Of a DNA stretch of 64,000 nucleotides, positions 10,483 to 27,622 are shown piece by piece. The number at the start of each line of letters is the position of its first letter. Position 1 is the stretch's first letter. The position numbers and the translations under genes are program-made. Source of the stretch: Pseudolabrys sp. (lineage in GTDB: Bacteria; Pseudomonadota; Alphaproteobacteria; Rhizobiales; Xanthobacteraceae). The stretch covers positions 186,001-250,000 of the forward strand of contig JAHCKG010000001.1 in the NCBI GenBank assembly GCA_026125895.1. The letters are read 5' to 3'. The notes under the pieces are model-generated. The model ran no database searches, was not told the DNA's origin, and worked only from the letters and a program-made list of their open reading frames with translations.

Positions 10483-11439
10483 TTATCTTTCCGGCTCATC
10501 AGGCTCAGGCTTCACCGTGGCGCTCTCCTTGGCGGTGACGATCTTGTTGCGCGTCAGCTTGGGCGACAGGATGTTCATGAAGTCGATCTCGAGCTTACGC
10601 AGATACGCGCTCTTGCGGAACGTGACATAGGCCGTGCTCGACGGAAAAAGATGGCTGACATCGCGGGCCTCCAGGTCGCCGTCATGCGCGGGATCGACGG
10701 CGATCGAAGCGAGGATGGCAATGCCCAGACCCAGCTCGACATAGGTCTTTGCGACGTCGGAATCGACCCCGGAAAAGGGGATGGTGGGCTTGATGCCTTC
10801 CTTCATAAAGGCTTCGAGGATGCTCCAGCCGCCGCTGCGGAAGCTGTCGTGGGCGATGATCGGATAAGCCGAAAGATCGCGGAGGCTGAGCTTCTTCAGC
10901 TTGAGCAGCGGATGATCCTTCTTGGCAATCACGCTGCGCGTCACGGTAAGGCACGGCAGCTTGACCAGGCCGAGAAAGGTCTTCAATCCGCCGGTCGCCA
11001 CGCCGATGTCGGCGAGCCCGGCCTGCACATACTCATGAGCCTCGGTGGGATTGCCCTGCATCAGGCCGATCTGCACCCCAGGGTACTTCTGCAGGAAAGT
11101 CTTGACGACGCGCGGCAGCACGTAGCGCGCGAATGTGTGCGTTGTTGCAATAATAAGTTTGCCGCCTGCCTCGCTGTTATAGTCGTTACGGACTTTCTTG
11201 ATGTCGGCAATGCCGGAAAAGATCATGTCGGCGATCTTGATGACCTCGTGACCGGGATCGGTCACGCCGACGATGCGATTGCGGGTGCGCTCGAAAATGT
11301 CGAAGCCGAGCTCCAGCTCGAGAAGGCGGATTTGTTTGCTGATGCCCGGCTGGGATGTATGGAGGACTTCGGCAGCTGCGGATATGTGATTTCCCGACCG
11401 GAACACCTCGAGGATGTATTTCAACTGATGAAGCTGCAT
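10483..11439 (-). CDS. LysR-family regulator, CysB-like
   Basis: 318-aa LysR-type regulator. The N-terminal winged helix-turn-helix reads MQLHQLKYILEVFRSGNHISAAAEVLHTSQPGISKQIR in parts; the TSQPGISKQ recognition-helix pattern is that of CysB/Cbl. The effector domain begins KLIIATTHTFARYVLP near residue 92, matching the CysB 'TTHTQARY' strand. The start at 11439 is preferred over an upstream in-frame codon because the HTH begins there and GGGAAGG precedes it. It is transcribed away from the Baeyer-Villiger monooxygenase at 11712, so it is likely to control that gene, the SDR pair or both through the 272-nt gap. A sulfur-related effector is possible by homology but not shown. Confidence 0.85.
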   Translation of the reverse strand: MQLHQLKYILEVFRSGNHISAAAEVLHTSQPGISKQIRLLELELGFDIFERTRNRIVGVTDPGHEVIKIADMIFSGIADIKKVRNDYNSEAGGKLIIATTHTFARYVLPRVVKTFLQKYPGVQIGLMQGNPTEAHEYVQAGLADIGVATGGLKTFLGLVKLPCLTVTRSVIAKKDHPLLKLKKLSLRDLSAYPIIAHDSFRSGGWSILEAFMKEGIKPTIPFSGVDSDVAKTYVELGLGIAILASIAVDPAHDGDLEARDVSHLFPSSTAYVTFRKSAYLRKLEIDFMNILSPKLTRNKIVTAKESATVKPEPDEPER

Positions 11440-11711
11440 TGAGCCTTCCCGGTGTGCGGACGTTTCCTTTATCGTTGCGAACACTTTACAGGGCGGCGCT
11501 GCGCACATCAAAGCGCATTGCACCCGCGATTTGTTCGCGAGGGCGGACCGGTCCGACCAAAGGCGTGCTTCTCTGCTTCAAGATGGGTTGCGGTAGGGCT
11601 GACTGCGACTAAAGCGAGCATCGCACGCAGTATGCCGCTCGGGAATTCTAGCAGCAAACAAACTCCGTCGACGCTTCCAACAGGCTCGATTACGGTTTTG
11701 CATTCATCTCT

Positions 11712-13613: not shown

Positions 13614-15107
13614 TCAGGTTTGGATTGCGAAGGGGTCGCGGTCTTCCTCGGAGAAGTTGATCATCACGTTCTTCGTGGTCATGAACTCGAGCATGCCTTC
13701 CTGGCCGCGCTCGCGGCCGTGGCCGCTTTCCTTGACGCCACCAAAGGGAATCTGCGCGCCGACGGCACGGTAGGTGTTAACCCACACCAACCCGGTGTGC
13801 AGTGCCTTGGCGACGCGGTGAACGCGGTTCACATCCTGCGTCCAGATGCCGGACGCCAAGCCGAATCGGGAGTCGTTGCCGATCGCGATGGCGTCTTCCT
13901 CGGTGTCGAAAGGAATGATTGCGAGCACGGGTCCGAAAATCTCTTCCTGAGCCAGCTTCATATCGTTGCGTACGTCGGCGAAGATGGTCGGCTGGATGAA
14001 AAGTCCGTTGCCAAGGTCGCCTCCTGTCGCGCGCTCGCCGCCGGTCATCAGCCGGGCGCCTTCCTTCTTCGCCGAGTTGATGTAACCCATGATGCGGTCG
14101 AGCTGCGGCTGGTTGGCGACCGTTCCCATCTCGGTGTTCGGATCGAGCGGGTTGCCGAGGCGGATCTTGGGTGCGCGCATGGTCAGCCGAGTCACGACCT
14201 CATTGTAAATCGGGCGCTGCACCAGCAAGCGAGAGCCGGCGATGCAGGTTTGGCCGGTGGCGGCGAAGATTCCAGCAAAGGCGCCGTTGCAGGCTTTGTC
14301 GAGGTTGGCGTCGGCGAAGATGATGTTGGGCGACTTGCCGCCGAGCTCCATGATGACGGGGGTCAGGTTCTTGCTGGCGGCGGCCGAGATCGCGCGTCCG
14401 GCGCCGGCGCTGCCGGTGAAGCTGATCTTGTCGAGGCCTGTCGCGCTGGCCAGCGCCGCGCCGGTCCGGGCGTCGCCGGTCACGACATTGAACACGCCTG
14501 CCGGGAAGCCGGCTTGCTCCATCAGCTTGCCGAATTCCAGCGTCGTTACCGAGGCGTGTTCGGACGGCTTGACGACGACGCAGTTGCCGGCAGCGAGACA
14601 GGCGGCGAGCTTGTTGCCGAGCAGGGACATCGGCGAATTCCAGGCCGTGATCAGGCCGATGACGCCGAGCGGGACCATGGCGGCGTAATCGAAGACATCC
14701 GCGCGGTCGAGCGGGATGACCTTGCCCCAGAGCTTGTCGGCATAGCCGGCATAGAAGCGCAGCACCCGCGCGAGGTAGCGCGCCTGGCCGCTGGTCTCGC
14801 GGATGACCTTGCCGTTGTCGGTGGTCTCCAGTTTACCGATCCGTTCGGCCGATGCGTCGACGAGATCGGCCAGCTTGAACATCAGCGTGGCGCGCTCGAG
14901 ACCGGTCTTGTGCTTCCAGACCCTCTCGAAAGTGTCACGGGCGGTCCGGATCGCCATGGCGACTTCATCGGCATCGGCTTGCGCGATTTCGGCCCAGGCT
15001 TGCTGCGTGAAAGGGTTGTAGGTCGGGAAGCGATCCTTGTTGCGAGGTGGCACCCAGCGGCCCCCGATGTACAAGTCGTAAGCGGGTAGCGCGACTGCCT
15101 GTTGCAC
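13614..15107 (-). CDS. NAD(P)-dependent aldehyde dehydrogenase
   Basis: 497-aa aldehyde dehydrogenase. The catalytic Cys288 lies in FAATGQTCIAG, the general-base Glu254 in MELGGKSPN, and Asn157 in TAWNSP; all are intact. The GTG start at 15107 is chosen because GGAGG lies 8 nt upstream. A longer reading from TTG at 15155 adds 16 residues with no ribosome site. It converges with the monooxygenase at 11712 and could oxidise an aldehyde formed downstream of it. The region around the catalytic Cys is nearly identical to that of the ALDH at 20011, so the two look like paralogues. Confidence 0.9.
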   Translation of the reverse strand: MQQAVALPAYDLYIGGRWVPPRNKDRFPTYNPFTQQAWAEIAQADADEVAMAIRTARDTFERVWKHKTGLERATLMFKLADLVDASAERIGKLETTDNGKVIRETSGQARYLARVLRFYAGYADKLWGKVIPLDRADVFDYAAMVPLGVIGLITAWNSPMSLLGNKLAACLAAGNCVVVKPSEHASVTTLEFGKLMEQAGFPAGVFNVVTGDARTGAALASATGLDKISFTGSAGAGRAISAAASKNLTPVIMELGGKSPNIIFADANLDKACNGAFAGIFAATGQTCIAGSRLLVQRPIYNEVVTRLTMRAPKIRLGNPLDPNTEMGTVANQPQLDRIMGYINSAKKEGARLMTGGERATGGDLGNGLFIQPTIFADVRNDMKLAQEEIFGPVLAIIPFDTEEDAIAIGNDSRFGLASGIWTQDVNRVHRVAKALHTGLVWVNTYRAVGAQIPFGGVKESGHGRERGQEGMLEFMTTKNVMINFSEEDRDPFAIQT

Positions 15108-15337
15108 CTTTGAATCCTCCGGATGATCGATTGGCGCGCAGATCGAGCGGCTCAAATCAACGCTCGAAGGATGCTGCTAGCGCATCATATGGAGGGGAAT
15201 AAGTGCCGATAATAACTTCTCGTTGGCGAGGATAATTAGAGATTATTGCAGCTCTTTCTCGCCTGCCGCGACAATGTCCGTGGCAGGCCATCGTGGCCGG
15301 CCCTGCAACGTGGCGTTTCTCGAGGGTTTGCGAGCCG
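15108..15337. other. Divergent promoter region
   Basis: This 230-nt gap separates the minus-strand aldehyde dehydrogenase from the plus-strand RraA-like gene. It is less GC-rich around 15180-15245 (for example ataataacttctcg and ggataattagag), where promoters for both directions would be expected. No clear operator palindrome was found by eye. Confidence 0.35.
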
Positions 15338-16054
15338 ATGTACGGTCACATCTACTATAATATCGAGCGACCGGCCCCTGCGTTGCTGGCGGCTTTCGCC
15401 GATATTCCGACCGCGACCTTGTCGGACGCCATGGGCCGGCATGGCGCTTTGGCGTCGTCGATCCGTCCGCTCTATCACGACATCCGAATGGTCGGCTGCG
15501 CGCTCACCGTGCTGTGCTTTCCCGGCGACAACCTGATGACGCACAAGGCGCTGCAGATGGTCGGCACTGGTGACGTTCTGGTCATCGACGATGGTGATTA
15601 TGACACCGGCTGCTTTGGCCATCGCAGTGCCCTGACGGCGCGCATGCGCGGCGGCGCGGGCGTCGTCGCCTCAGGCTCGATCCGCGACGCGGCTGCATTA
15701 CGGCAGGAGCGGTTTCCGGTATTTTGCCGCAGCACCTCGCCGCGCGCGCCGCAGAAGAATACGCCCGGCTCGATCAACGTGCCGGTGCAGGTCGGCGGCA
15801 TCGTCGTAGCCCCAGGTGACATCGTCGTCGGTGACGACGATGGCGTCGTCATCGTGCCGCGCGCCATGGCGGCGGCGGTGCTCGAGAAGGCCAGGCAGCG
15901 CGATGCCAAGGAGCGCGAGCAGGGGGTGACGGGCACGCCGGAATTGCCGCTCGATCCGTCCGGCGCCGCCTTGAGCCTCGACCGCCTGCTCGCCGGCAAG
16001 GTCATCGAGCATCACGAGTTCCATTCATGGGGCGTGACCGGGCGTGTCAAGTAG
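15338..16054 (+). CDS. RraA-family aldolase-like protein
   Basis: 238-aa protein of the RraA / 4-hydroxy-4-methyl-2-oxoglutarate (HMG) and 4-carboxy-4-hydroxy-2-oxoadipate (CHA) aldolase family. TLSDAMGRHGAL near residue 28, GDVLVIDDGDYDTGCFG near 80, the Arg-Asp pair in VVASGSIRDAAAL near 115, and the GDIVVGDDDGVVIVP strand near 165 are all present. The GSIRD Arg and Asp correspond to the substrate- and metal-binding residues. Family enzymes cleave tertiary-alcohol 2-oxo diacids, giving pyruvate. The ATG at 15338 is preferred over 15293 because homology begins at this position. It opens the plus-strand run leading to 27622. Confidence 0.8.
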   Translation: MYGHIYYNIERPAPALLAAFADIPTATLSDAMGRHGALASSIRPLYHDIRMVGCALTVLCFPGDNLMTHKALQMVGTGDVLVIDDGDYDTGCFGHRSALTARMRGGAGVVASGSIRDAAALRQERFPVFCRSTSPRAPQKNTPGSINVPVQVGGIVVAPGDIVVGDDDGVVIVPRAMAAAVLEKARQRDAKEREQGVTGTPELPLDPSGAALSLDRLLAGKVIEHHEFHSWGVTGRVK

Positions 16055-16179
16055 CGAGGTCCGCGCTGCATGAGTATGGCATCCAGCAATAGCTGAATTG
16101 TGAGAAGTTATGAGTTGGCCCGGTTCGCCCTTGTTACAAGCCGACGCGAGATTGGAAGTGCAGCAGGGAGCGTGCCCGG

Positions 16180-17697
16180 ATGGCGCAAGACGTGCAGACC
16201 GGTGATGAGTTCGATGTGATCGTGGTGGGCGGCGGCAACGCCGCCTTGTGCGCCGCCATCACAGCGCGCGAAGAGGGCGCGCGTGTTCTCCTGCTGGAAA
16301 GGGCTCCCGAAGACGAGCGCGGCGGCAACAGCTCGTTTACCGAAGGTCTGATGCGCTTTGTCTACTCAGGCAAGGACGACATCGTTGCGCTGTCGCCGGA
16401 TCTGACACCCGACGAACTGAACAGTGATTTCGGCGTCTATACCGAAGAGAAATTCTTCGACGACATGGCCCGCGTCACGCAGAACCGGACCGATCCGGAT
16501 CTCTGCGAAATCCTCGTCAAGCAGAGCAATGCCACGCTGCACTGGATGCGCCGCCAGGGCGTGCGCTTCCTGCCGCAGTTTGGCCGACAGGCCTTCAAGG
16601 TCGACGGCAAGTTCACCTTCTGGGGCGGCGCGACGCTTGCCGCGGTGGGCGGCGGGCGCGGACTGGTCGATCAGCTCTACCGGGCCGCCGAGAAGGCCGG
16701 CGTGACGATCCGCTACAATGCGTGGGCGCGGGATCTCATCTACACGGATGAGGGCGTCCAGGGCGTGCTGGTCAACATCAACGGCACCACGTCGCGCATC
16801 GATGCGCGCTCGGTCGTGCTGGCCTGCGGCGGCTTCGAAGCGAATGCCGCCTGGCGGGCGCGCCATCTCGGGCCGGGCTGGGATCTGGCCAAGGTGCGCG
16901 GCAGCCGTTACAACTGCGGCGACGGACTCGACATGGCGCTGCGCATCGGCGCGCAGTCCGCAGGTCATTGGTCGGGCTGCCATGCGGTCGGTTGGGAGCG
17001 TTACGCCGACGAGTTCGGCAGTTTCGACACCATGGACGACTACGAGCGCGACAACTACCCGTTCTCGATCATGGTCAATGCTGACGGCAAGCGCTTCCTC
17101 GACGAGGGCGCCGACATCCGCAACTACACCTACGCGAAGTACGGTCGCGTCATCCTGCAACAGCCCGACCAGTTCGCCTGGCAGATCTTTGACTCCTCGG
17201 TAACTCACATGTTGCGGCCGGAGTACCGGGCGCGCCGTGTCACCAAGGTCACGGCCAATACCATCGAAGAACTGGCCGACAAGATCGGCGATGTGGACCG
17301 CGACGCCCTGATCAAGACCATCAAGGACTACAACGCCTCGATCACGCGCGATGTGCCGTTCAATCCCAACAAGAAGGACGGCCGCCGTACGATCGGACTC
17401 GATGTGCCGAAGTCGAACTGGGCGGTACCGCTGGAAAATCCGCCGTTCGAAGCCTACGCAGTGACCTGCGGCGTCACCTTCACATTCGGCGGCCTCAAGG
17501 TCACCACCGACGCACAGGTGATCAACACCAGCAATCATCCAATGCCGGGCCTGTTCACCGCCGGCGAGATGCTGGGCGGCCTTTTCTACTTCAACTATCC
17601 GGGCGCCACCGGTCTCACCAGCGGTGCCGTGTTCGGACGCATCGCCGGCCGCAGTGCGGCGAGGGCTGCAGCCCAGCCGCAAACCCGGGTCGCTTGA
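16180..17697 (+). CDS. FAD-dependent flavoprotein, TcuA / fumarate-reductase-like
   Basis: 505-aa flavoprotein of the succinate dehydrogenase/fumarate reductase flavoprotein class. It begins EFDVIVVGGGNAALCAAITAREEG (FAD Rossmann motif), then LLERAPEDERGGNSSFTEG. The C-terminal GLFTAGEMLGGLFYFNYPGATGL gives the second FAD contact. GGGNAALCAA and GGNSSFTEG are typical of tricarballylate dehydrogenase TcuA and FAD-dependent 3-ketosteroid-type relatives. TcuA oxidises tricarballylate to cis-aconitate. Close by are an aconitase homologue, a PrpD homologue and Bug binding proteins, so a tricarboxylate-like substrate is plausible. The exact substrate is inferred from context only. Confidence 0.78.
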   Translation: MAQDVQTGDEFDVIVVGGGNAALCAAITAREEGARVLLLERAPEDERGGNSSFTEGLMRFVYSGKDDIVALSPDLTPDELNSDFGVYTEEKFFDDMARVTQNRTDPDLCEILVKQSNATLHWMRRQGVRFLPQFGRQAFKVDGKFTFWGGATLAAVGGGRGLVDQLYRAAEKAGVTIRYNAWARDLIYTDEGVQGVLVNINGTTSRIDARSVVLACGGFEANAAWRARHLGPGWDLAKVRGSRYNCGDGLDMALRIGAQSAGHWSGCHAVGWERYADEFGSFDTMDDYERDNYPFSIMVNADGKRFLDEGADIRNYTYAKYGRVILQQPDQFAWQIFDSSVTHMLRPEYRARRVTKVTANTIEELADKIGDVDRDALIKTIKDYNASITRDVPFNPNKKDGRRTIGLDVPKSNWAVPLENPPFEAYAVTCGVTFTFGGLKVTTDAQVINTSNHPMPGLFTAGEMLGGLFYFNYPGATGLTSGAVFGRIAGRSAARAAAQPQTRVA

Positions 17698-17846
17698 ATC
17701 GGACGTTCGGTTCCCTGGCGGTGCGGCCGGCAAGCCCCGCCGCGGGCTATGACGCAACGGGCATAGTACTATCGGCTCTCGTGCATTCTGGTCGATCCGG
17801 CGCCTCGTTAGACTTGCCCGATAAAAGACCGGAACGGAGGAAACAC

Positions 17847-18833
17847 ATGTGGCGCAAGGCGTCTGTCTCGGGCTTGCTGGGCGTATCACTTCTGCTCGGC
17901 ATCGCCGGATATAGCGCGGCCGAACTCGGCTATCCCAAGGAAACGGTCAAGCTTGTCTCGGCCTTCGCGGCCGGAGGCGGCAACGATTTCATGGCGCGGC
18001 AGCTCGCGCAGAAATTCCAGGAACTCTACAAAGGGACCTTCATCGTCGAGGACCGCCCAGGCGGAAACGGCGACATCGCCACGAACTATGTTGCCAGCGC
18101 CAAGCCTGATGGCAACACGCTGCTGGTCACGACCAACGCCACCATCGTGATCAACCCGCAGATGTTCTCGTCGGCCATCCGATTCGACCCGGTCAAGGAT
18201 TTCGCGCCGGTCAGCCTGCTTGCGCGCCAGCCCTTCATGCTCGTCGTCAGCCCGAAGCTCAAGGTCAAGACGATGCCCGAGTTCGTGGCCTATGCGAAGG
18301 CTCATGCCGACAAGCTGAACTACGGCTCCTCGGGGGCAGGCGGCGGCGCGCATCTGGCGGGCGAGATGCTCAATGCGCGGCTCGGCATCAAGATGCAGCA
18401 CATCCCGTACAAGGGTATCGCGCCCGCGTTACAGGATCTGATCGGCGGCCGCATCGACCTGATGTTCGGCGCTATCCAGACGGTGCGCCCCTTCGTCGAC
18501 AGCGGCCAGATCGTGCCGATCGCGGTGTCGAGCCTCGAGCGCAACAGCGCTATGCCGAATATTCCCGCGGTGGCCGAGTTTCCCGGCTTCGAGGGCTTCG
18601 AATCCGACCTGTGGTATGGTCTGCTGGCTCCTGCCGGCACCGATCCCGCGATCATCGAAAGTCTGGCGAAGCAGACGACGGCAAGCTTCAAGGACCCCGC
18701 GGTTCGCTCGCACTTCGAGCCCTACGGCACGGTTCTGATCGGCAGCACGCCGCAGCAGTTCGCCGACGACATCAAGACCGACCTGAAGAAATGGAGCGAG
18801 GTTCTGAGCAAGGCCGGCCTCGCAAAGAACTAG
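17847..18833 (+). CDS. Bug-family solute-binding protein
   Basis: 328-aa periplasmic Bug/TctC protein. The signal peptide MWRKASVSGLLGVSLLLGIAG ends near YSAAELGYP. Family hallmarks are VKLVSAFAAGGGNDFMARQ, IVEDRPGGNGDIATNYVA, and LNYGSSGAGGGAHLAGEML. The start at 17847 has GGAGG 6 nt upstream; earlier in-frame codons belong to the 149-nt gap after the TcuA-like gene. It is followed after 32 nt by the TPP-enzyme genes. No TctA/TctB genes are in the window. Confidence 0.88.
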   Translation: MWRKASVSGLLGVSLLLGIAGYSAAELGYPKETVKLVSAFAAGGGNDFMARQLAQKFQELYKGTFIVEDRPGGNGDIATNYVASAKPDGNTLLVTTNATIVINPQMFSSAIRFDPVKDFAPVSLLARQPFMLVVSPKLKVKTMPEFVAYAKAHADKLNYGSSGAGGGAHLAGEMLNARLGIKMQHIPYKGIAPALQDLIGGRIDLMFGAIQTVRPFVDSGQIVPIAVSSLERNSAMPNIPAVAEFPGFEGFESDLWYGLLAPAGTDPAIIESLAKQTTASFKDPAVRSHFEPYGTVLIGSTPQQFADDIKTDLKKWSEVLSKAGLAKN

Positions 18834-18865
18834 AATGTTCAAGCCATCGGAAAAGTGGAGCTAAC

Positions 18866-19396
18866 GTGTCGACCGAAACACCAGCGCGGACTTGGCCGCG
18901 CGAAATATACGATGTCCTGAAGCAAGTCGGGATCGAGCAGGTGGCTTACGTCCCGGATGCGGGACATGCCCAGCTTATCCGCGATTGTGAAGCCGACAAT
19001 GCCATGAATGTCGTCTCCCTCACGACCGAGGAGGAGGGCGTCGCGATGCTGGCGGGCGGCTGGCTCGGCGGCAAGAAGGGCGTGCTGTTGATGCAGTCGT
19101 CCGGCGTGGGCAATTGCATCAACATGCTCAGCGTCGCGATCGAAGGCCGCTTTCCGCTGCTGATGATCGTCACCATGCGTGGCGAATGGGGCGAGTTCAA
19201 TTCCTGGCAGTTGCCCATGGGACAGTCGACGCCCAAGGTCCTCGAGGATATCGGCGTCTACGTGCAACGCGCCGAACGGGCCGATGAGGTGCGCGACGTC
19301 GTGTTCGCCGCGGCGCAGATGACATTTTCCAGCAATCGTCCGATTGCGGTGCTGCTCGGTCAGCGGCTGCTCGGTTTCAAGGATTGGAGCAAGTAG
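18866..19396 (+). CDS. TPP-dependent decarboxylase, PYR-domain (alpha) subunit
   Basis: 176-aa protein made of a single thiamine-pyrophosphate PYR domain, as in the alpha subunit of sulfopyruvate decarboxylase (ComD) and the N-terminal half of phosphonopyruvate decarboxylase. The TTEEEGVAMLAGG segment near residue 50 holds the Glu that activates the cofactor, and LLMQSSGVGNCINML follows. The start is the GTG at 18866 with GGAG 5 nt before it; the codons further upstream in frame run through the previous gene. It lies 2 nt from the gene for the cofactor-binding half, so the two should form an alpha/beta enzyme. The probable reaction is non-oxidative decarboxylation of a 2-oxo acid to an aldehyde. 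Confidence 0.82.
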   Translation: MSTETPARTWPREIYDVLKQVGIEQVAYVPDAGHAQLIRDCEADNAMNVVSLTTEEEGVAMLAGGWLGGKKGVLLMQSSGVGNCINMLSVAIEGRFPLLMIVTMRGEWGEFNSWQLPMGQSTPKVLEDIGVYVQRAERADEVRDVVFAAAQMTFSSNRPIAVLLGQRLLGFKDWSK

Positions 19397-19398
19397 TC

Positions 19399-19995
19399 AT
19401 GGCCGAACGCAAGCAAGGCACGATGGATCGCCGCGAGGTCGTCGCCGACCTGATCAAGGGGCGTGGCGATGCGCTGATCGTCACCGGTCTCGGCTCGACC
19501 TGTTATGATTTCGGCACGCAGGACCATCCGAACACCTACTATCTCTGGGGCGGCATGGGCGCCGCCGCGATGCTGGGGCTTGGTCTGGCGCTGGCGCAGC
19601 CGTCGCGTCGCGTCGTCGTGGTGACCGGCGACGGCGAAATGCTGATGGGCTTCGGCGCTTTCGCCACCATCGGCGCCAAGGCGCCGAAGAACCTGTCGCT
19701 GGTCGTGATCGACAATGAGCACTACAGCGAGACCGGCATGCAGCCGACTCACATCGGCCGCGGTGTCAGTCTCGAGGGCGTGGCCAAGGCTTGCAGCTTT
19801 CCGAGCGCGCAGACGATCTACAGCAAGGATGAACTGGCCAAGGCCGTGCCGGAGATTTTCGGCGGCAAAGGGCTCTCGTTCCACGACATCAAGGTCAGCA
19901 CCAAACGCTACCCGATGTCGATTCGGCTGCGCGACGGCGCTCACATCAAGAACCGATTCCGCGAAAATCTTCTCGGCGCCAAGGCGTTCGACTAA
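19399..19995 (+). CDS. TPP-dependent decarboxylase, PP-domain (beta) subunit
   Basis: 198-aa protein made of a single TPP PP domain. The cofactor/Mg motif is GDGEMLMGFGAFATIGAK, ending near LVVIDN (GDG with the distal Asn). YLWGGMGAAAMLGLGLALA precedes it. It resembles the beta subunit of sulfopyruvate decarboxylase (ComE). The ATG at 19399 is preferred because GGAG lies upstream and the previous gene ends just before it. Fifteen nt downstream an aldehyde dehydrogenase begins, which would naturally oxidise the aldehyde product. Confidence 0.83.
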   Translation: MAERKQGTMDRREVVADLIKGRGDALIVTGLGSTCYDFGTQDHPNTYYLWGGMGAAAMLGLGLALAQPSRRVVVVTGDGEMLMGFGAFATIGAKAPKNLSLVVIDNEHYSETGMQPTHIGRGVSLEGVAKACSFPSAQTIYSKDELAKAVPEIFGGKGLSFHDIKVSTKRYPMSIRLRDGAHIKNRFRENLLGAKAFD

Positions 19996-20010
19996 GGGCG
20001 GTGAGGGATC

Positions 20011-21501
20011 ATGGACGCGAAAGTCGAGTCGCTGACGCGCTACAAGATGTGGATCGGCGGCGAATGGACCGACGCCGCCGGCGGCGAGGTCTTCGAGACT
20101 CATAATCCCTACACCGGAAAGGCCTGGGCGCTGATCCCCCGGGCCAACGCCACGGATGTCGATCGCGCCGTGAAGGCCGCTCACAAGGCCTTCACGAGCG
20201 GTCCCTGGCCGAAGATGTCGGCCTCGCAGCGCGGCGCGCTGTTGCGCAAGCTCGGCGATCTCATCACCGAGAACGCCGAGAAGCTGGCAAAGATCGAAGT
20301 TGCCGATAACGGCAAGCTGTTCTCGGAAATGCGCGGCCAGACCGGCTATATGGCGCAGTGGTATTACTACTTCGGCGGCCTCGCCGATAAAATCGAAGGC
20401 TCGGTCATTCCGAGCGACAAGGCGGAAACCTTCAACTACACCGAACACGAGCCGCTGGGCGTCGTCGCGGCGATCGTGCCGTGGAATTCACCGCTGCTGC
20501 TCACGGCCTGGAAACTCGCGCCGGCGCTTGCGGCCGGCAATACCGCGGTGATCAAGCCGTCGGAGTTCACCTCCGCGTCGCTGCTTGAATTCTGCAAGCT
20601 GATCGAACAGGCCGGCTTCCCGCCCGGCGTCGTTAATGCGGTGACGGGGTTTGGTGGCGAGGCGGGAGGGCCTCTGGTCGAGCATCCGCTGGTCGCCAAG
20701 ATCACCTTCACCGGGTCGGACACGACCGGTCAGCGCATCTATGAGACTGCGGCGCGCGGCATGAAGCGGGTCAGCCTCGAGCTCGGCGGCAAGTCGCCGA
20801 ATATCGTGTTCGACGACGCCAATCTCGACAATGCGGTGAAGGGCGCCATTTCCGGCATCTTCGCCGCGACCGGCCAGACCTGTATCGCCGGCTCGCGACT
20901 GCTGGTTCAGCGATCGATTCATGACCAATTCGTCGAGAAACTTGTGGCCTTCGCCAAGACCGCGCGCATGGGCGACCCGATGAGCCTCGATACTCAGGTC
21001 GGTCCCGTCACCACGCCGCCGCAGTACAAGAAGGTGCTCGAATATCTCGATATCGCCAAGACGGAAGGCGCGACGGCCGCGCTCGGCGGCAAACGCGCCG
21101 AGCAATTCGGCGGCTATTTCGTCGAGCCGACCATCTTCATCAACGTCAAGAACAGCATGCGCATCGCGCAGGAGGAAGTGTTCGGGCCTGTTCTCTCGGT
21201 CATCCCCTTCGAAGACGAAGAGGACGCCATCGCCATCGGCAACGATGTCGTCTTCGGGCTGGCCGCCGGCGTGTGGACACAGAGCATGCGCCGCGCCTTC
21301 ACCATGGCCAAGCGCCTTCAGGCGGGCACCGTCTGGATCAACACCTATCGGGCGGTGAGCTATCTTTCGCCCTTCGGCGGCTATAAGCGTAGCGGGATCG
21401 GACGCGAGAGTGGTCAGGACATGATCAAGGAGTATCTCCAGACCAAGAGTGTCTGGATCTCCATGGCCACCGAGGTGCCGAACCCGTTCGTGATGCGCTG
21501 A
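20011..21501 (+). CDS. NAD(P)-dependent aldehyde dehydrogenase
   Basis: 496-aa aldehyde dehydrogenase with intact catalytic Cys291 (FAATGQTCIAG), base Glu257 (LELGGKSPN) and Asn159 (VPWNSP). It is close in sequence to the ALDH at 13614, with a matching catalytic-loop block, which suggests duplication within the locus. It sits directly behind the split TPP decarboxylase, so the expected job is oxidation of the aldehyde released by decarboxylation to a carboxylic acid. Confidence 0.9.
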   Translation: MDAKVESLTRYKMWIGGEWTDAAGGEVFETHNPYTGKAWALIPRANATDVDRAVKAAHKAFTSGPWPKMSASQRGALLRKLGDLITENAEKLAKIEVADNGKLFSEMRGQTGYMAQWYYYFGGLADKIEGSVIPSDKAETFNYTEHEPLGVVAAIVPWNSPLLLTAWKLAPALAAGNTAVIKPSEFTSASLLEFCKLIEQAGFPPGVVNAVTGFGGEAGGPLVEHPLVAKITFTGSDTTGQRIYETAARGMKRVSLELGGKSPNIVFDDANLDNAVKGAISGIFAATGQTCIAGSRLLVQRSIHDQFVEKLVAFAKTARMGDPMSLDTQVGPVTTPPQYKKVLEYLDIAKTEGATAALGGKRAEQFGGYFVEPTIFINVKNSMRIAQEEVFGPVLSVIPFEDEEDAIAIGNDVVFGLAAGVWTQSMRRAFTMAKRLQAGTVWINTYRAVSYLSPFGGYKRSGIGRESGQDMIKEYLQTKSVWISMATEVPNPFVMR

Positions 21502-21524
21502 ACGGGCAGGGAAGAGGAACGGAC

Positions 21525-22937
21525 ATGGCTGCACTGCCGGAAGGACCGGGACAGGAACTGGTGGCGTTCGCCCATCGCCTGTCGCTGAGCGATCTGCCGG
21601 TGGACGTCATCGACCGCGCCAAGACCTGCCTGTTGGAGGCGATGGGCTGCGGGCTGTTCGGCTCGACGCAGCCGTGGTCGCAAATCCTGCTTGCCGAGAT
21701 GACGGCGGAAGGCGCGCCGGGGCGTAGCACCGTGTTCGGCTCGCCGCAGGCGTTTGCCGCTCCGGCGGCCGCGCTGATCAACGGCACCGCGATCCACGGC
21801 TTCGAACTTGACGATCTGATCGCGGAATCGATCACCCATCCGGCCGCTTGCGTTATCCCGGCGGCGCTTGCCGCCGCCGAAGCTACTGGCGCGTCCGGCG
21901 TGCGACTGATCGAGGCGATCGTCGCCGGCTACGAAGTCATGCACCGCGTCGGCGTGGCGCTCGGCACCGAGCCGGCCAAGCGCGGCTTCCACACCACAAG
22001 TCTTGTCGCTCCGGTCGCCTGCGCGATCGCCGCCGGCAAGGTGATGCAACTCGATCTCAACCAGCTCTACTCCGCCGTGGGCCTCGCCTGTTCGGCGGCG
22101 TCGGGCGTCAAGAGCTTCGCCGCCGGCCGCGGCGGCGGCATGGTGAAACGCCTGCATCTTGGCCGTTCGGCGGAAGCGGGCGTGCGCAGCGGGCAGCTTG
22201 CCGCGCGCGATTTCCTCGGGCCGCCTTTCGCGCTCGACAGCAAATTCGGCTTGCTCGAGGTGTTCGGCGGTGCCGGCGCCGACCCGGCCAGGCTGTCGCG
22301 CGATCTCGGCCATACCTGGGCCATGCGCGACGTCTGGTTCAAGGTGTTCCCGATCTGCGGCTGGATCCAAACGCCGGTGATGCTGCTTGTCGAGGCCCGC
22401 GGATTGCGGCCGCGCCGCGCGGCGGAGATCAAGAGCGTGCGCGTCGGCGTCAGCGCATATGCGGCCAAGAACAACGGCGAGCCGGCGCCGATCGACACCA
22501 TGGGCGCGCAATACAGCATCCCTTACTGCGCAGCGGTGGCGCTGAGCGGCAATCCGCGCGATCCGCGCTCCTTCCTCTCCGATGCCATCGCCGATGCAGA
22601 GACCCGCGCTTTGGCGGCGAGGGTGGAGGTCTTCATCGATCCCGAGGTCGAGGCGGTCTACCCGCGCCAGTTCGGCGCCAGCGTCGCACTTGAACTGACC
22701 GACGGCACGAAGTATCGGCGCACGGCCATGGAGTGCCACGGCACGCCGGCAGATCCGTGCAGCCACGAGGAGCATCTCATCAAGTTCCGTACGCTGGGCG
22801 CTACCGTGCTCGATGAGAGCACGGTCGGCGAACTGGCAAGGCTGATCGATGCGACGCCGACGCTGGCGAGCGTCCGTGATCTGACGGCGCCGCTGCGCAG
22901 CGCCGTCGTTTCCGCCAGTGAAAGGCAGAAGGCATGA
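21525..22937 (+). CDS. MmgE/PrpD family protein
   Basis: 470-aa protein of the MmgE/PrpD family (2-methylcitrate dehydratase, cis-aconitate decarboxylase and relatives). ELVAFAHRLSLSDLPVDVIDRAKTCLLEAMGCGLFG at the N-terminus, AALINGTAIHGFELDDL near residue 83, IEAIVAGYEVMHRVG near 130 and VKVFPICGWIQTPV near 275 are family-typical. PrpD enzymes remove water from citrate-type tertiary alcohols without a metal cluster. Located between an ALDH and an aconitase homologue, it could supply an aconitate-like alkene to the latter. The stop overlaps the next start by 4 nt. Confidence 0.87.
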   Translation: MAALPEGPGQELVAFAHRLSLSDLPVDVIDRAKTCLLEAMGCGLFGSTQPWSQILLAEMTAEGAPGRSTVFGSPQAFAAPAAALINGTAIHGFELDDLIAESITHPAACVIPAALAAAEATGASGVRLIEAIVAGYEVMHRVGVALGTEPAKRGFHTTSLVAPVACAIAAGKVMQLDLNQLYSAVGLACSAASGVKSFAAGRGGGMVKRLHLGRSAEAGVRSGQLAARDFLGPPFALDSKFGLLEVFGGAGADPARLSRDLGHTWAMRDVWFKVFPICGWIQTPVMLLVEARGLRPRRAAEIKSVRVGVSAYAAKNNGEPAPIDTMGAQYSIPYCAAVALSGNPRDPRSFLSDAIADAETRALAARVEVFIDPEVEAVYPRQFGASVALELTDGTKYRRTAMECHGTPADPCSHEEHLIKFRTLGATVLDESTVGELARLIDATPTLASVRDLTAPLRSAVVSASERQKA

Positions 22938-23914
22938 CACTGCTCGGTCATCTCCGCCGCTGGAGCCTCGCAGCAATGGTGCCGGCCTTCGTCACGTCGG
23001 CCTCGCAAGCGCAGGACTACCCGGATCGCGCGATTCAGCTCGTCGTGCCGTTCCCGCCGGGCGGGCCGGCCGACATCGTCGCGCGGCCGTTGGCGGAAGG
23101 ATTGTCGCGCACGCTGGGCAAGCCCGTCGTCGTCGTCAACAAGTCCGGCGCCAGCGGGACCCTGGGCGCGGCTTACGTCGCCAAGGCGGCGCCCGACGGT
23201 TACACGCTGCTGATGGGCACCAGCAACGAACTGACGATGAGCCCTGGGCTGTTCGAGCGGTTGCCTTACGATCCGAGCCGCGACTTCGCCCCCGTTTCGA
23301 CGACGGTGCTGTTTCCCAACGTTCTGGTCGTGAACAAGGACCTGCCAATCCATAGCGCCAAGGAGCTGGCCGAGGCGACGCGCGCGAACCGCGACCGGTA
23401 CAATTACGGCACCAGCGGCACTGGCAGCACCAATCATCTCACTGCCGAACTCTACAGCGCGGCGACCAAGCTCAAATTTCACTATGTGCCGTACCGCGGC
23501 GGGGCGCCGGCGATGACCGACCTGATGGGCGGTCAGATCCAGGCGATGTTCGCGACCATGCCGTCGGCGGCATCCCTGATCAACGCCGGCTCGATCCGCG
23601 CCTTGATGGTCACCGACACCAAGCGCTGGAGCGCCATTCCCAAGGTGCCGGACGCGAAAGAGGCCGGGTTTCCAGAGGTGAAGGTGATTTCCTTCAACGG
23701 CGTTCTGGCGCCGGCCGGCACGCCACGGCCGATCATCGACAGACTGCACGGCGCCATCGTCGCGGTGATGAACACCCCCGAGATGAAAGCGCGCATGGCC
23801 GAGAGTGCCGGCGAAGTTTCAACGTCGACGCCGGAAGCCTTTGCACAGACGCTCAAGAGCGATTTCGAGGGCTGGCTCGCCGTCATCAAGGCCAACAATA
23901 TCCGCGCCGAATAG
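22934..23914 (+). CDS. Bug-family solute-binding protein
   Basis: 326-aa periplasmic Bug/TctC protein with signal peptide LLGHLRRWSLAAMVPAFVTS, cleaved near SQAQDYPDR. Hallmarks are IQLVVPFPPGGPADIVAR, VVVVNKSGASGTLGAAYVA, AAPDGYTLL and YNYGTSGTGSTNHLTAEL. It is translationally coupled to the PrpD-like gene (ATGA overlap), which ties its ligand to this pathway. It is the third Bug gene in the window. Membrane components are again missing nearby. Confidence 0.88.
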   Translation: MTLLGHLRRWSLAAMVPAFVTSASQAQDYPDRAIQLVVPFPPGGPADIVARPLAEGLSRTLGKPVVVVNKSGASGTLGAAYVAKAAPDGYTLLMGTSNELTMSPGLFERLPYDPSRDFAPVSTTVLFPNVLVVNKDLPIHSAKELAEATRANRDRYNYGTSGTGSTNHLTAELYSAATKLKFHYVPYRGGAPAMTDLMGGQIQAMFATMPSAASLINAGSIRALMVTDTKRWSAIPKVPDAKEAGFPEVKVISFNGVLAPAGTPRPIIDRLHGAIVAVMNTPEMKARMAESAGEVSTSTPEAFAQTLKSDFEGWLAVIKANNIRAE

Positions 23915-23934
23915 CCGGCGCGCCGACACGAAGT

Positions 23935-26637
23935 ATGACGTTCATGAAGTCTCTCCTCAGCGCCGTCTGCGAGCGCAACATCAATCTCGGCCCGGGGCGC
24001 GAATTCCGCTACTTCTCCCTGCCGGCGCTCGAGCAGGCCGGCTATGGCGCGATTTCGCGCCTCCCGGTTTCCTTGCGCATCATCCTTGAGTCGATGGCCC
24101 GGCATTGCGACGGTGAGCGCGTTACCGAGCGCCAGCTACGCGACCTGGCGACTTGGCAGCCTAACGCCAAACGCGACAGCGAAGTGCCCTTCGTCGTTTC
24201 GCGCATCGTGCTCAATTGCGCCGCCGGCATTCCGCTGCTCGGCGACCTCACCGCCATTCGCGGCGCGGTGAAGGCCATGGGCGGCGCTGCCGGCGAGATC
24301 GAGCCCAAAGTGCCGGTCGACATGGTGCTCGATCATACCTTGACGGTCGATTTCAGCGGCACGCCGGATGCGCTGGCGCGCAACATGGCGCTGGAGATCA
24401 GCCGCAATGCCGAGCGCTTCCGTTTCGTCAAATGGGCGATGCATGCCTATGACGGCATACGGCTGTTTCCGCCCGGCGCCGGCATCCTGCATCAGGTCAA
24501 TCTCGAATATCTCGCCCGCGGCGTGATGGTGCACGACGGCGTCATTTATCCGGACAGCCTGGTCGGCACTGACTCGCACACCTGCATGATTGCGGGCCTC
24601 GGCGTCATGGGCTGGGGTGTCGGCGGCATCGAGGCTGAAGCGTCCGCGCTCGGTCAGCCGAACTACATGCTGATGCCAGACGTCGTCGGCGTAAACGTGT
24701 CGGGGCAATTGCGCGCCGGCGTCACCTCGACCGATCTCGTGCTGCACGTCACCGACATGCTGCGGCGGCACAAGGTCGTCGGCAAATTCGTCGAATTCTT
24801 CGGCGCGGGCGTTGCTGGCCTCAGCATCCCGGACCGCGCGACGATCTCGAACATGGCGCCGGAGTACGGCGCGACCATCGGCTATTTCCCTGTTGACGAA
24901 CAGACCTGCAAGTATCTGACGCAGACCGGGCGGCCGGCCGAGCAGGTTTCGGCGGTCGAGACCTACTTCAAGGCGCAAGGCTGCTTCGGCTCGCCGCAGC
25001 CCGGGCAGGTCGCCTACACCGGCGTGATCGAACTCGATCTCGGCGCTGTCGAACCGTGCGTTGCCGGACCGAAACGGCCGCAGGATCGCATCCCGCTCGG
25101 ACATCTGCAGCGCAGTTTCACCGACATCTTGACACAACCGGTGACGTCCGGCGGATACGGCGCCACGGCGCCAGCCGCCCAGCCGGCAGGCAACCGGCAG
25201 GTGACGCATGGCGATGTCGTCATCGCCGCGATCACGTCCTGTACCAACACGTCAAACCCGTCTGTCATGGTCACGGCGGGCCTGGTCGCGCGCAAGGCGG
25301 TCGAGCGCGGTCTGCGCAGCAAGCCGTGGGTCAAGACCTCGCTGACGCCGGGATCGCGCGTGGTCAGCAAATATCTCGAGGCTGCCGGCCTGCAACCGGC
25401 CCTCGATACGCTGGGCTTCAGCGTGGCGGGTTATAGTTGCGGCACCTGTGTCGGCGCCTCCGGACCGATCGATGCCGGTCTTGAGAAAGCTATCGCCGAT
25501 AACGACGTCATTGCCGCCGCGGTCCTTTCGGGCAACCGCAATTTCGAAGCGCGGATCCACCCGGCTGTTCGCGCGGCATTTCTGGCGAGCCCGCCGCTGG
25601 TCGTGGCCTTTGCGCTGGCGGGCACCGTCAATATCGATCTCGACAGCCAGCCACTTGGGCTCGGCGCCGACGGAGCGCCCGTTTACCTTCGCGACATCTG
25701 GCCGACGGCCGAGGAGCGCGACGCGGCGCTCGCCATCGCGGCCACACCGGCATTCTATCGTGAGGTCTACGGCAACGCCGCCGGCAACCGCGATCCGTCA
25801 TGGGACGACCTGCCGCAAGCGTCGGGCGAGATCTATCCGTGGGAAGGCCGGTCCGATTACATCAAGGAGCCGCCGTTCCTCACGGAGCAGTTCCGTGAGA
25901 CCGTGCTGAAGCCGGTCACAGGAGCCCGCGCGCTGCTCGTGCTCGGCGACTCCGTCACGACGGATCACATCAGCCCCATCGGCAATATCAAGGCGAGTTC
26001 GCCGGCCGGCGTCTATCTGCGCGATCTCGGCGTCAAGCCGGGCGACTTCAACAATTACGGCGCGCGGCGCATGAACCACGAGGTCATGGTGCGCGGCGGC
26101 TTTGCCAATGTGCGGCTGCGGAACCTCATGCTGCCCGGCAGCGAAGGCGGCGTGACCCGGCACGTGCCCAGTGGCGAGCAGATCAGCGTCTACGACGCCG
26201 CCATGCGCTACAAGGCGGAGAGCGTACCGCTTGTCGTCATCGCCGGCGAGGAATACGGCACCGGCAGCGCGCGCGATTGGGCCGCCAAGGCGACGCGGCT
26301 CCTGGGCGTACGCGCCGTCATCGCGCGGAGCTTCGAACGCATCCATCGCAGCAATCTGGTGGGAATGGGCGTTCTACCATGCCAATTCATGCCGGGAGAC
26401 AGCGCGGCCAGCCTCAAGCTGACCGGCGACGAGAGTTTCGATCTTGTCGGTCTCGACGATGCGGTTCGGCCGCTCCAGGAAGTGACGCTCGTCATTCGTC
26501 GTGCCGGCGGCGCCGTCGACCGCGTTCCCGTGCGTCTTCGCCTCGATACGGTGATCGAAGCGGGCTATGCCCGCAAGGGTGGGATCATGCCCTATCTGCT
26601 GTCCGAGCTTGCCTCGAACCGTGTTGCAGCGGAATAG
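23935..26637 (+). CDS. Aconitase-family hydro-lyase (AcnA type) with altered active site
   Basis: 900-aa protein of the AcnA/IRP aconitase family, full length, with all four domains and the swivel domain at the C-terminus. The three 4Fe-4S ligands are kept: Cys436 (SCTNTSNPSVM), Cys502 and Cys505 (YSCGTCVGASGP). DHTLTVD and GTDSHT are also present. Several normally invariant substrate-pocket positions differ from E. coli AcnA: MQDFTG is LNCAAG (Asn94 for Gln), TMING is CMIAG (Ala220 for Asn), GNSGP is GASGP (Ala508 for Asn), and GSSRDWA is GSARDWA (Ala779 after the kept Ser778). The cluster chemistry should work, but citrate is probably not the substrate. Neighbouring PrpD-like and HIBDH-like genes suggest a related hydroxy-tricarboxylate. 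Confidence 0.88.
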   Translation: MTFMKSLLSAVCERNINLGPGREFRYFSLPALEQAGYGAISRLPVSLRIILESMARHCDGERVTERQLRDLATWQPNAKRDSEVPFVVSRIVLNCAAGIPLLGDLTAIRGAVKAMGGAAGEIEPKVPVDMVLDHTLTVDFSGTPDALARNMALEISRNAERFRFVKWAMHAYDGIRLFPPGAGILHQVNLEYLARGVMVHDGVIYPDSLVGTDSHTCMIAGLGVMGWGVGGIEAEASALGQPNYMLMPDVVGVNVSGQLRAGVTSTDLVLHVTDMLRRHKVVGKFVEFFGAGVAGLSIPDRATISNMAPEYGATIGYFPVDEQTCKYLTQTGRPAEQVSAVETYFKAQGCFGSPQPGQVAYTGVIELDLGAVEPCVAGPKRPQDRIPLGHLQRSFTDILTQPVTSGGYGATAPAAQPAGNRQVTHGDVVIAAITSCTNTSNPSVMVTAGLVARKAVERGLRSKPWVKTSLTPGSRVVSKYLEAAGLQPALDTLGFSVAGYSCGTCVGASGPIDAGLEKAIADNDVIAAAVLSGNRNFEARIHPAVRAAFLASPPLVVAFALAGTVNIDLDSQPLGLGADGAPVYLRDIWPTAEERDAALAIAATPAFYREVYGNAAGNRDPSWDDLPQASGEIYPWEGRSDYIKEPPFLTEQFRETVLKPVTGARALLVLGDSVTTDHISPIGNIKASSPAGVYLRDLGVKPGDFNNYGARRMNHEVMVRGGFANVRLRNLMLPGSEGGVTRHVPSGEQISVYDAAMRYKAESVPLVVIAGEEYGTGSARDWAAKATRLLGVRAVIARSFERIHRSNLVGMGVLPCQFMPGDSAASLKLTGDESFDLVGLDDAVRPLQEVTLVIRRAGGAVDRVPVRLRLDTVIEAGYARKGGIMPYLLSELASNRVAAE

Positions 26638-26683
26638 CGCGGCCTGTATCTGGGGCTATCGAACAGCCGCGAAGGAAGACGAC

Positions 26684-27622
26684 ATGGACAAGCAAGACTC
26701 AGCAACCAAGCCGAGCGTCGGTTTGATCGGTATCGGCAGCATGGGCTGGCCGATGGGCGCACGGGTCCGGCAGGCGGGCTACACGCTGACCGCCATCGAT
26801 GCGGCGCCGGGGCGCGCCGAACAATTCGCCAAGGAGACGGGCGCCGTCGCTGCCAAGGATGCGGCGGCGGTTGCGCGCGCCAGCGACATCGTCATCACCA
26901 TGTTGCCGACCAGCCAGGACGTGGCGGCCGCACTGGGCGGCGACAACGGTGTGCTCGCCGGCTTGCGATCCGGCAGCGTGGTGGTCGAGATGAGTTCCGG
27001 CATGCCGTCGCGCACGCGTGAGCTTGCGGAACTGGTCGCGGCCAAGGGCGCCACGCTGATCGATGCGCCAGTGTCGGGCGGCGTGCCGCGCGCCAAGACC
27101 GGCGAACTCGCGATCATGGTCGGAGGCGACGAGGCCGCGATCGAGAAGGCGAGGCCGGTCTTGCTGGCCATGGGCAACAACGTCACCCGTGTCGGCGACA
27201 TTGGCAGCGCGCATGCCATGAAGGCGCTCAACAATCTCGTGTCGGCCGGCGGCTTTCTCATCGGTATCGAGGCGATGCTGATCGGCAGCAAGTTCGGCAT
27301 CGACGAAGGCATCATGGTGGACATTTTGAATGCCTCCACCGGCATGAACAACTCGACGCAGAAGAAGTTCAGGCAGTTTGTCCTGTCCCGCGCCTTCAAT
27401 GCCGGGTTTGGCCTCGACTTGATGACAAAGGACCTGACCATCGCGCTCGATCTCGCGCGGGAAACCGCAACGCCCGCGCCTTTCTCCGCCTTATGCCGCG
27501 AAATGTGGGCGTCGGCGGCCGCCATGCTGGGCAAGGGGAAGGATCATACGGCCATGGCCAAGCTGAGCGAGACGCTGGCTCATTACGAATTGGGCGGCGC
27601 GTCGGCCGATACGAAGCGTTGA
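26684..27622 (+). CDS. NAD(P)-dependent beta-hydroxyacid dehydrogenase, HIBDH family
   Basis: 312-aa enzyme of the 3-hydroxyisobutyrate / 6-phosphogluconate-type dehydrogenase family. The cofactor motif is VGLIGIGSMGWPMG near residue 11; the substrate signature is DAPVSGGVPRAKTGELAIMVGG near 125 and the catalytic Lys lies in HAMKALNNLVSAG near 175. It also has FGLDLMTKDLTIALDLA near 245. The start at 26684 is chosen because GAAGGAAG lies just upstream and the Rossmann motif then starts at the usual place. It ends the catabolic run and would oxidise a secondary or primary hydroxy-acid made by the aconitase homologue. It might instead reduce a semialdehyde. Confidence 0.88.
   Translation: MDKQDSATKPSVGLIGIGSMGWPMGARVRQAGYTLTAIDAAPGRAEQFAKETGAVAAKDAAAVARASDIVITMLPTSQDVAAALGGDNGVLAGLRSGSVVVEMSSGMPSRTRELAELVAAKGATLIDAPVSGGVPRAKTGELAIMVGGDEAAIEKARPVLLAMGNNVTRVGDIGSAHAMKALNNLVSAGGFLIGIEAMLIGSKFGIDEGIMVDILNASTGMNNSTQKKFRQFVLSRAFNAGFGLDLMTKDLTIALDLARETATPAPFSALCREMWASAAAMLGKGKDHTAMAKLSETLAHYELGGASADTKR

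Follow-up and report, generated by a model that had tools for sequence, protein, structure and literature searches.

A candidate polycarboxylic acid catabolic cluster of Pseudolabrys, conserved around a split thiamine pyrophosphate decarboxylase, a PrpD-family enzyme and an altered aconitase

Within a 64,000-nucleotide stretch of a Pseudolabrys sp. genome (assembly GCA_026125895.1, contig JAHCKG010000001.1, positions 186,001 to 250,000; the window), ten genes encode, in order, an RraA-type aldolase (RraA), a TcuA-like flavoprotein (TcuA), a Bug-type binding protein (Bug1), the halves of a split thiamine pyrophosphate (TPP) decarboxylase (TPPa and TPPb, together TPPab), an aldehyde dehydrogenase (ALDH), an MmgE/PrpD-family enzyme (PrpD), a second Bug protein (Bug2), an aconitase homologue (Acn) and a dehydrogenase resembling 3-hydroxyisobutyrate dehydrogenase (HIBDH). 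TPPa, TPPb, PrpD and Acn are found together in this order at all 12 loci compared. The reading that we favour, while giving it slightly less than an even chance, is that these genes form a conserved catabolic cluster, probably spread by horizontal transfer, for a polycarboxylic acid resembling succinate or aconitate that would be imported and processed as the free acid.

Open reading frames (ORFs), Pfam and NCBIfam placed the ten genes on one strand in the order given by the initial annotation, Pfam and NCBIfam agreeing on the family names, and the coordinates likewise agreed with its account of small gaps or overlaps across 17847-27622: TPPa and TPPb overlap by 13 bases, PrpD and Bug2 by 4. 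All ten plus-strand ORFs show third-position GC bias, weakest in TPPa, whose start as called by the script lies far upstream. The catalytic motifs of these families are intact, namely the Glu region of TPPa, GDG...DNE in TPPb, the Cys and Glu regions of ALDH (present in 10/10 cluster copies) and the Arg-Asp motif of RraA (6/6 aligned copies). As the initial annotation had held, the Pfam and NCBIfam families point to polycarboxylic acid breakdown. Inverted repeats ahead of RraA and next to the nearby LysR gene were inspected without a clear signal.

A PrpD query against 84,980 species genomes, by a method limited to close relatives, yielded nine loci. The window, these nine, a Shinella plasmid (L045) and a genome of the window's family reached through TPPa (L047) make up the 12 window-type loci; repeat loci of genomes already included (L048-L051) were left out of the counts, and a second Shinella plasmid (H2) with the same match stands outside the 12. 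All are from Alphaproteobacteria, mostly Hyphomicrobiales, the hosts of the 11 relatives being Bradyrhizobium, a Hyphomicrobiales metagenome-assembled genome, Bosea, Mesorhizobium (two), Agaricicola, Shinella (three), Phyllobacterium and the family member. The order TPPa-TPPb-PrpD-Acn is kept in 12/12, including 9/9 from the PrpD scan, and pairwise distances are correlated among the four core proteins (r = 0.85-0.94, uncorrected for host relatedness). As a control, six housekeeping acnA neighbourhoods of 12-18 kb each gave no TPPab or PrpD match at E 1e-10. Because the core order is invariant and the core protein distances correlate, the association of these genes exceeds chance; that they belong together, as first proposed, is upheld.

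Around this core the partner genes vary. The most frequent are ALDH and Bug1 (10 of the 12 loci each), a LysR-type regulator (9), TcuA (7) and RraA (6 full-length, plus a partial copy in L010), followed by a PcaC-like protein (7), CapA (6), HIBDH-like and epimerase-fold proteins (4 each), an HpcH/HpaI aldolase (3), PrpF (2) and electron-transfer flavoprotein (ETF; 2). At most loci the flanks end within about 10 kb of the core, so that an unseen partner is not a proven absence. The initial annotation had called for a search of genomes for co-occurrence of PrpD, Acn, the TPP enzyme, HIBDH and Bug genes; TPPab, PrpD and Acn did co-occur at every locus and Bug1 at ten, but HIBDH did not. Its relatives outside the window number three in 11 loci, are 43-45% identical and lie at other positions, and we rejected HIBDH both as a fixed member and as a core gene.

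The distribution of the cluster is patchy. At E <= 1e-100, PrpD matched 2/397 genomes of an order sample, the window's own included, and at E <= 1e-80 only the window's own among 398 of a phylum sample, both being lower bounds with at most four candidates scored per genome. Within the genus, 41/43 genomes have an Acn match, the cluster type being confined to the window's genome; the other genus matches, among those listed, are 48-53% identical, like housekeeping AcnA. In the family, TPPa at E <= 1e-50 is found in 199/391 genomes. Next to the window's own match, the four best (68-90%) all belong to window-type loci; none of the nine fetched at 51-63% has a PrpD or Acn match (E 1e-12) in the stretch read. 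This patchiness, together with a plasmid copy, points to horizontal transfer as the probable means of spread.

Acn is a second aconitase copy and appears to be specialised. Each of eight genomes searched holds at least one other Acn match, although in the window's genome and in G471 that copy is broken or cut by the contig end. The pocket loop reads LNCAAGIP in 12/12 cluster copies, as against MQDFTGVP in 7/7 housekeeping copies reaching that point, and GSARD in 12/12 stands against GSSRD in 6/6; fragments of <480 residues, among them the broken G471 housekeeping copy, were excluded from this comparison. The canonical forms LQDFTGVPAV and GSSRD, both present in IRP1 (2b3x), are thus absent from all 12, while the inspected Cys, Asp-His and Arg motifs are kept. 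The cluster copies form a clade of their own with support of 99/98 (11 rows; exclusion of seven repeat rows from the tree also dropped the L004 copy). The replaced Gln and second Ser are part of the aconitase substrate pocket and, because the side chains in the changed pocket are smaller, a bulkier substrate is suggested. In a Burkholderiales relative (L090, 56%), which carries no annotation, the loop has the Gln-Asp form.

Further aconitase paralogues were seen in other settings. G298 has additional AcnA paralogues, about 55% identical to the window's, beside tripartite-tricarboxylate transporter genes (L113, L114), one of them with an RraA relative. On the Shinella plasmid L045 (20566-29347), and also in L011 (16567-21062), a second module adjoins the window-type cluster, consisting of an isocitrate lyase/phosphoenolpyruvate mutase family gene and an AcnA paralogue with the loop PDSSG; in L045 it also has amidohydrolase, isochorismatase and ALDH genes.

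The initial annotation read PrpD as a methylcitrate-type dehydratase, a role that neither its profile scores nor its closest solved relatives bear out. Against three NCBIfam 2-methylcitrate-type models its scores lie far under the cut-offs (66.9/950, 32.5/575 and 29/458). By sequence the closest solved structures are IRG1/cis-aconitate decarboxylase (5.6e-34 to 5.8e-27) and iminodisuccinate (IDS) epimerase (8.8e-27), whereas 2-methylcitrate dehydratase follows only at 7e-13; Foldseek with the predicted structure gave the same order (6.6e-22, 2.7e-20 and 3e-15), mean pLDDT being 80.6 and residues 94-102, 196-203 and 463-470 falling <50. A family assignment as METHYLCITRATE dehydratase was rejected on the greater nearness to IRG1/cis-aconitate decarboxylase and IDS epimerase.

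A study of this family, which it calls mostly uncharacterised, describes MmgE/PrpD enzymes as acting on a 1,4-dicarboxylate unit, identifies the PrpD of the itaconate/methylsuccinate cluster as a methylsuccinate isomerase with His102 and Tyr148 as proposed bases, proposes a one-base mechanism for cis-aconitate decarboxylase and holds that a Bacillus 'IRG1' most likely has another activity (PMC12290011). H91, E94, H105, H156, K208 and K273 are invariant in 12/12 cluster PrpD and are counterparts of the residues that it gives for the MmgE/PrpD family, whose members bind 1,4-dicarboxylates. H105 corresponds to His103 of cis-aconitate decarboxylase, a residue common to the wider family (model-match identity 23-25%). 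At the position of the second-base Tyr (Tyr148/Tyr145) all 12 have Ala, Ser or Phe, with no Tyr in the adjoining stretch and with Lys or Arg next to the lost position; Variovorax, Mesorhizobium and Deinococcus PrpD copies have the Tyr. Since the binding and catalytic residues are kept and the Tyr is replaced, the enzyme is more likely to catalyse a one-base reaction, such as a dehydration or a decarboxylation, than an epimerisation, except if the Lys or Arg stands in for the Tyr. The role of methylsuccinate isomerase was rejected on the absent Tyr. In the PrpD tree the branches outside the cluster clade are long, and the tree was used for that clade alone. Elsewhere in the window's genome (G000:C9 38000-57000, L116), a 19-kb stretch carries two further PrpD genes together with a PcaC-like gene, a distant TcuA and a member of the isocitrate lyase family.

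For TPPa and TPPb, the best NCBIfam matches are the subunits of sulfopyruvate decarboxylase, both under cut-off (120.8/147.95 and 122.2/221.5). Thirty-six plasmid records hold a TPPa relative, and 11 hand-picked contexts were read: one is window-type, and eight (L085, L086, L089, L091 and L093-L096, from Alphaproteobacteria, Variovorax and Deinococcus) combine TPPab and ALDH with a coenzyme A (CoA) transferase and MaoC, accompanied in the stretch read by acyl-CoA dehydrogenase in seven, PrpD in six and CoA ester lyase in five. Of the remaining two contexts, one lacks MaoC but has ALDH, CoA transferase and acyl-CoA dehydrogenases; the other has none of these. In 3/8 of the CoA-type contexts an enzyme that would yield 2-oxo acids (aminotransferase, amino-acid dehydrogenase or isocitrate dehydrogenase) is encoded close by. 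Because of this company and of the 2-oxo-acid-forming genes, TPPab and ALDH would appear to convert a substituted 2-oxo acid to a substituted succinate in the CoA-type clusters, and probably in the window too. The published itaconate/methylsuccinate set comprises CoA transferase, MaoC, CoA lyase, acyl-CoA dehydrogenase and PrpD (PMC12290011, PMC9875883); no report linking TPPab and ALDH to such clusters was among the open papers listed. In two genomes of the window's family (L052, L053), TPPab paralogues of about 60% identity stand beside a multi-domain rhodanese gene and a LysR gene, which suggests a sulfur-related role for those paralogues.

TcuA passes NF006130 (606 against a cut-off of 369) and falls under TIGR02485 (305.6 against 372.55), and RraA passes NF006731, for 4-carboxy-4-hydroxy-2-oxoadipate (CHA) aldolase/oxaloacetate decarboxylase (182 against 179), and misses TIGR02798 (171 against 304.5). 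Five other contexts of the TcuA subfamily were read, in four of which the TcuA relative has LeuCD and PrpF (L099), ETF (L100) or PrpD (L102, L103) for company; ETF also lies near TcuA in L006 and is present in L010. In L102 (7192-9515, Paracoccus versutus pTAV3) a gene annotated as phosphosulfolactate synthase (ComA-type) overlaps the tcuA-family gene, and the neighbours of this pair are two PrpD genes, PrpF and a transporter of the NrtA/SsuA type, which hints at a sulfonated polycarboxylate pathway there. On Bradyrhizobium guangxiense p53363, the tcuA-family gene of L100 is accompanied by ETF, a CoA lyase and a putative sulfate exporter, about 34 kb from the TPPab/ALDH/PrpD cluster L093, which has a cysteine dioxygenase gene.

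From gene content, conservation, intact catalytic motifs and changed pocket residues we infer the reactions, their order and the substrate as follows. The Bug and ABC proteins would import the acid. The split TPP enzyme would decarboxylate a 2-oxo polyacid to an aldehyde, which ALDH would oxidise to an acid one carbon shorter, probably a substituted succinate, and TcuA would desaturate this to an aconitate-like acid. The pocket-altered Acn and the PrpD-family enzyme would then hydrate, dehydrate or decarboxylate the aconitate-like acid, a dehydrogenase (HIBDH, short-chain or epimerase-fold, depending on the locus) would form a 2-oxo acid, and RraA, at some loci together with an HpcH/HpaI aldolase, would cleave or decarboxylate it. 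The whole would be a CoA-free counterpart of the itaconate/methylsuccinate pathway. We regard this full version, with a neofunctionalised Acn working on a bulkier aconitate analogue, a PrpD of new activity and final cleavage by RraA, as doubtful.

Several observations weigh against the cluster reading and this scheme. TcuA was seen in just 7/12 loci and RraA in 7/12 (one partial), albeit with short flanks, and HIBDH is not conserved (4/12). CapA, PcaC-like and AbrB-type genes, present at several loci, are left unexplained. Acn passes the AcnA profile TIGR01341 (1181 against a cut-off of 945). Without its Tyr, PrpD is no analogue of methylsuccinate isomerase in activity, and the adjacent Lys or Arg could be a second base. 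The choice of the 11 plasmid contexts was not random, and two of the eight CoA-type ones are Deinococcus near-copies; the fifth TcuA-relative context (L101) has none of the partner genes LeuCD, PrpF, PrpD and ETF. Around a Cupriavidus PrpD relative (L046, 49%), 29 kb were read without TPPab or Acn being seen, which speaks against the link between these genes being universal. Finally, tricarballylate is achiral and, once it is desaturated, the ordinary tricarboxylic acid (TCA) cycle would suffice.

The initial annotation chained the enzymes in the fixed order PrpD-Acn-HIBDH-TPP-ALDH. In that order PrpD and Acn would dehydrate and hydrate an aconitate- or citrate-like acid, the alcohol would be oxidised, the resulting beta-keto acid would lose CO2, and the 2-oxo acid so formed would be decarboxylated by TPPab and oxidised by ALDH, a TCA-like shortening of R-CH(COOH)-CH2-COOH to R-CH2-COOH. 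Every enzyme class is present, 7/12 loci have either HIBDH or a gene of the epimerase fold (NAD-dependent epimerase/dehydratase) close to the core, and RraA-family members carry an oxaloacetate decarboxylase annotation. Nevertheless, HIBDH itself is at four loci only, and the CoA transferase, MaoC and, mostly, acyl-CoA dehydrogenase found with related TPPab and ALDH suggest that the pair acts upstream, making a substituted succinate that is then desaturated. We consider the earlier order unlikely: the cluster that it was built on is supported, the exact path only in part.

That RraA passes a CHA aldolase model raises the alternative of a lower pathway of ring cleavage, in which TPPab and ALDH would oxidatively decarboxylate 4-oxalomesaconate or 4-carboxy-2-oxoadipate, from protocatechuate or gallate, and so yield aconitate or tricarballylate; Acn would serve as a hydratase of the 4-oxalomesaconate type and RraA would be the CHA aldolase. 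PcaC-like genes in 7/12 loci, PrpF in 2/12, a LigA gene in the window's own genome and an Agrobacterium CapA (L087) accompanied by genes annotated as CHA aldolase and oxalomesaconate tautomerase are consistent with it. However, LigA, in itself not decisive, was found in just 3/8 cluster genomes, one match being weak, RraA falls well under TIGR02798, the L010 PrpF passes the methylaconitate isomerase model and fails that for oxalomesaconate tautomerase, and no ring-cleavage dioxygenase is among the genes scanned or annotated around the L045 core; we judge this origin very unlikely. Plain use of tricarballylate or trans-aconitate, through ordinary TcuA and aconitase activities with the other genes forming a separate neighbouring pathway, would account for the scores of TcuA on NF006130 and of Acn on TIGR01341; but the core is TPPab-PrpD-Acn, kept even where TcuA was unseen, the Acn loop differs from that of housekeeping AcnA in 12/12 and TcuA misses TIGR02485, and we judge such use decidedly improbable. 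Least probable of all is a sulfonated acid such as sulfosuccinate, taken by TcuA, Acn and a dehydrogenase to sulfopyruvate for decarboxylation by a ComDE-like TPPab: the best NCBIfam matches of both halves, the TcuA relatives that have an NrtA/SsuA-type transporter for a neighbour, together with phosphosulfolactate synthase in L102 and with a putative sulfate exporter in L100, the TauD-family gene of L004 and the rhodanese genes beside TPPab paralogues in L052 and L053 (not among the neighbours scanned in L058 and L060) would fit, but both ComDE models are under cut-off and ComA, SsuA, SsuC, sulfate-exporter and cysteine-dioxygenase queries, a set in which sulfoacetaldehyde acetyltransferase was not searched, gave no match in the 12 loci.

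Upstream of the ten genes (Table 1), the cluster may extend farther, because in a Mesorhizobium locus (L007) relatives of the LysR regulator, the short-chain dehydrogenase and the ABC binding protein are all found no more than about 8 kb from the core. The families of the first ABC permease and of the ATPase are also common to the window and L007, and LysR identity to the window copy, 47-77% in the other eight loci that have it, is 77% there. Between the LysR and second ALDH genes, the window has a flavin-monooxygenase gene of Baeyer-Villiger type (11712-13586), which is probably outside the conserved set, a 38% partial match in L008 being the only one among the loci compared.

Table 1. Genes of the candidate cluster and of its upstream flank in the window
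Feature	Coordinates	Strand	Basis
RraA-type aldolase/decarboxylase	15338..16054	+	PF03737; passes NF006731; Arg-Asp motif
TcuA-like FAD dehydrogenase, polycarboxylate type	16180..17697	+	Passes NF006130; seen in 7/12 loci
Bug/TctC binding protein 1 (Bug1)	17847..18833	+	PF03401; 10/12 loci
TPPa, N-terminal half of split TPP decarboxylase	18839..19396	+	PF02776; 12/12 loci; Glu motif
TPPb, C-terminal cofactor-binding half of split TPP decarboxylase	19384..19995	+	PF02775; 12/12 loci; GDG...DNE motif
ALDH, proposed oxidiser of the TPP product	20011..21501	+	PF00171; 10/12 loci
MmgE/PrpD-family enzyme without second-base Tyr	21525..22937	+	Pfam/NCBIfam, alignment, structure comparison
Bug/TctC binding protein 2 (Bug2)	22934..23914	+	PF03401; among the 12 loci, in the window, L004 and L005 only
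AcnA-type hydro-lyase, specialised second copy, altered pocket loop	23935..26637	+	Profile, alignment, tree
HIBDH/tartronate-semialdehyde-reductase-like dehydrogenase, peripheral	26684..27622	+	PF03446 and PF14833; relatives in 3/11 other loci
ABC (branched-chain amino acid type) substrate-binding protein, possible uptake role	4247..5371	+	PF13458; 73% relative in L007
ABC permeases (5465-6349, 6346-7329) and ATPase (8093-8806)	5465..8806	+	Pfam BPD_transp_2 (two), ABC_tran
Short-chain dehydrogenase (SDR1), possible hydroxy-acid dehydrogenase	8816..9550	-	Pfam; relatives adjoin core in L007 (76%) and L009 (72%)
LysR-type regulator, probable regulator of the cluster	10483..11523	-	Pfam; 9/12 loci
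Second aldehyde dehydrogenase, divergent from RraA, uncertain member	13614..15155	-	Pfam Aldedh

If the favoured reading is right, the cluster would break down branched polycarboxylic acids without CoA, and its aconitase would be an example of a copy that has taken on a new substrate and is clearly marked in its sequence. It would also assign a role to one subgroup within the MmgE/PrpD family and to the TPPab and ALDH pairs found with methylsuccinate-type genes, and would correct the automatic labels 'acnA', 'tcuA' and 'pcaC', which imply ordinary TCA or aromatic functions. The initial annotation knew of no described pathway with exactly this set, and none came to light in the open literature, searched mostly as titles and the beginnings of abstracts; among the open PMC papers listed, those on sulfosuccinate and tricarballylate included, none appears to deal with this gene set, a weak negative in that subscription papers lie mostly outside.

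Known systems share parts of the cluster. With the CHA aldolase LigK/RraA family it has in common the RraA fold, the Arg-Asp motif and a score above the NF006731 cut-off, but TIGR02798 is failed and no ring-cleavage gene was seen alongside. The 2-methylcitrate cycle (prp operon) likewise brings PrpD- and aconitase-family genes together, and PrpF is present in two relatives of the window cluster; this cycle was rejected on the PrpD profile scores, PrpD missing the dehydratase models, and the ten genes include neither PrpB nor PrpC. Tricarballylate utilisation by TcuABC also pairs a TcuA-family flavoprotein with polycarboxylate uptake; in contrast, no TcuB- or TcuC-type family is among the ten genes and no enterobacterial record is among the 40 best plasmid matches (down to 38% identity). 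ComDE and phosphonopyruvate decarboxylase are likewise two-subunit TPP enzymes made of separate halves; TPPab differs in that it stays under their cut-offs and keeps other gene company. LumKL is also a two-subunit TPP enzyme of this build (PMC12746152). Finally, the itaconate/methylsuccinate cluster (Ict-Ich-Ccl with Mcd and Msi) differs in its use of CoA, since CoA transferase, acyl-CoA dehydrogenase, MaoC and CoA lyase queries from Variovorax L086 gave no match in the 12 loci, whereas the window cluster has free-acid enzyme families and a PrpD without the isomerase Tyr. Yet it resembles the window cluster in an MmgE/PrpD enzyme for a 1,4-dicarboxylate, in a hydration and a lyase step and in a flavin desaturation step, the last proposed for the window (PMC12290011, PMC9875883), and in other bacteria clusters of this kind hold related TPPab and ALDH genes.

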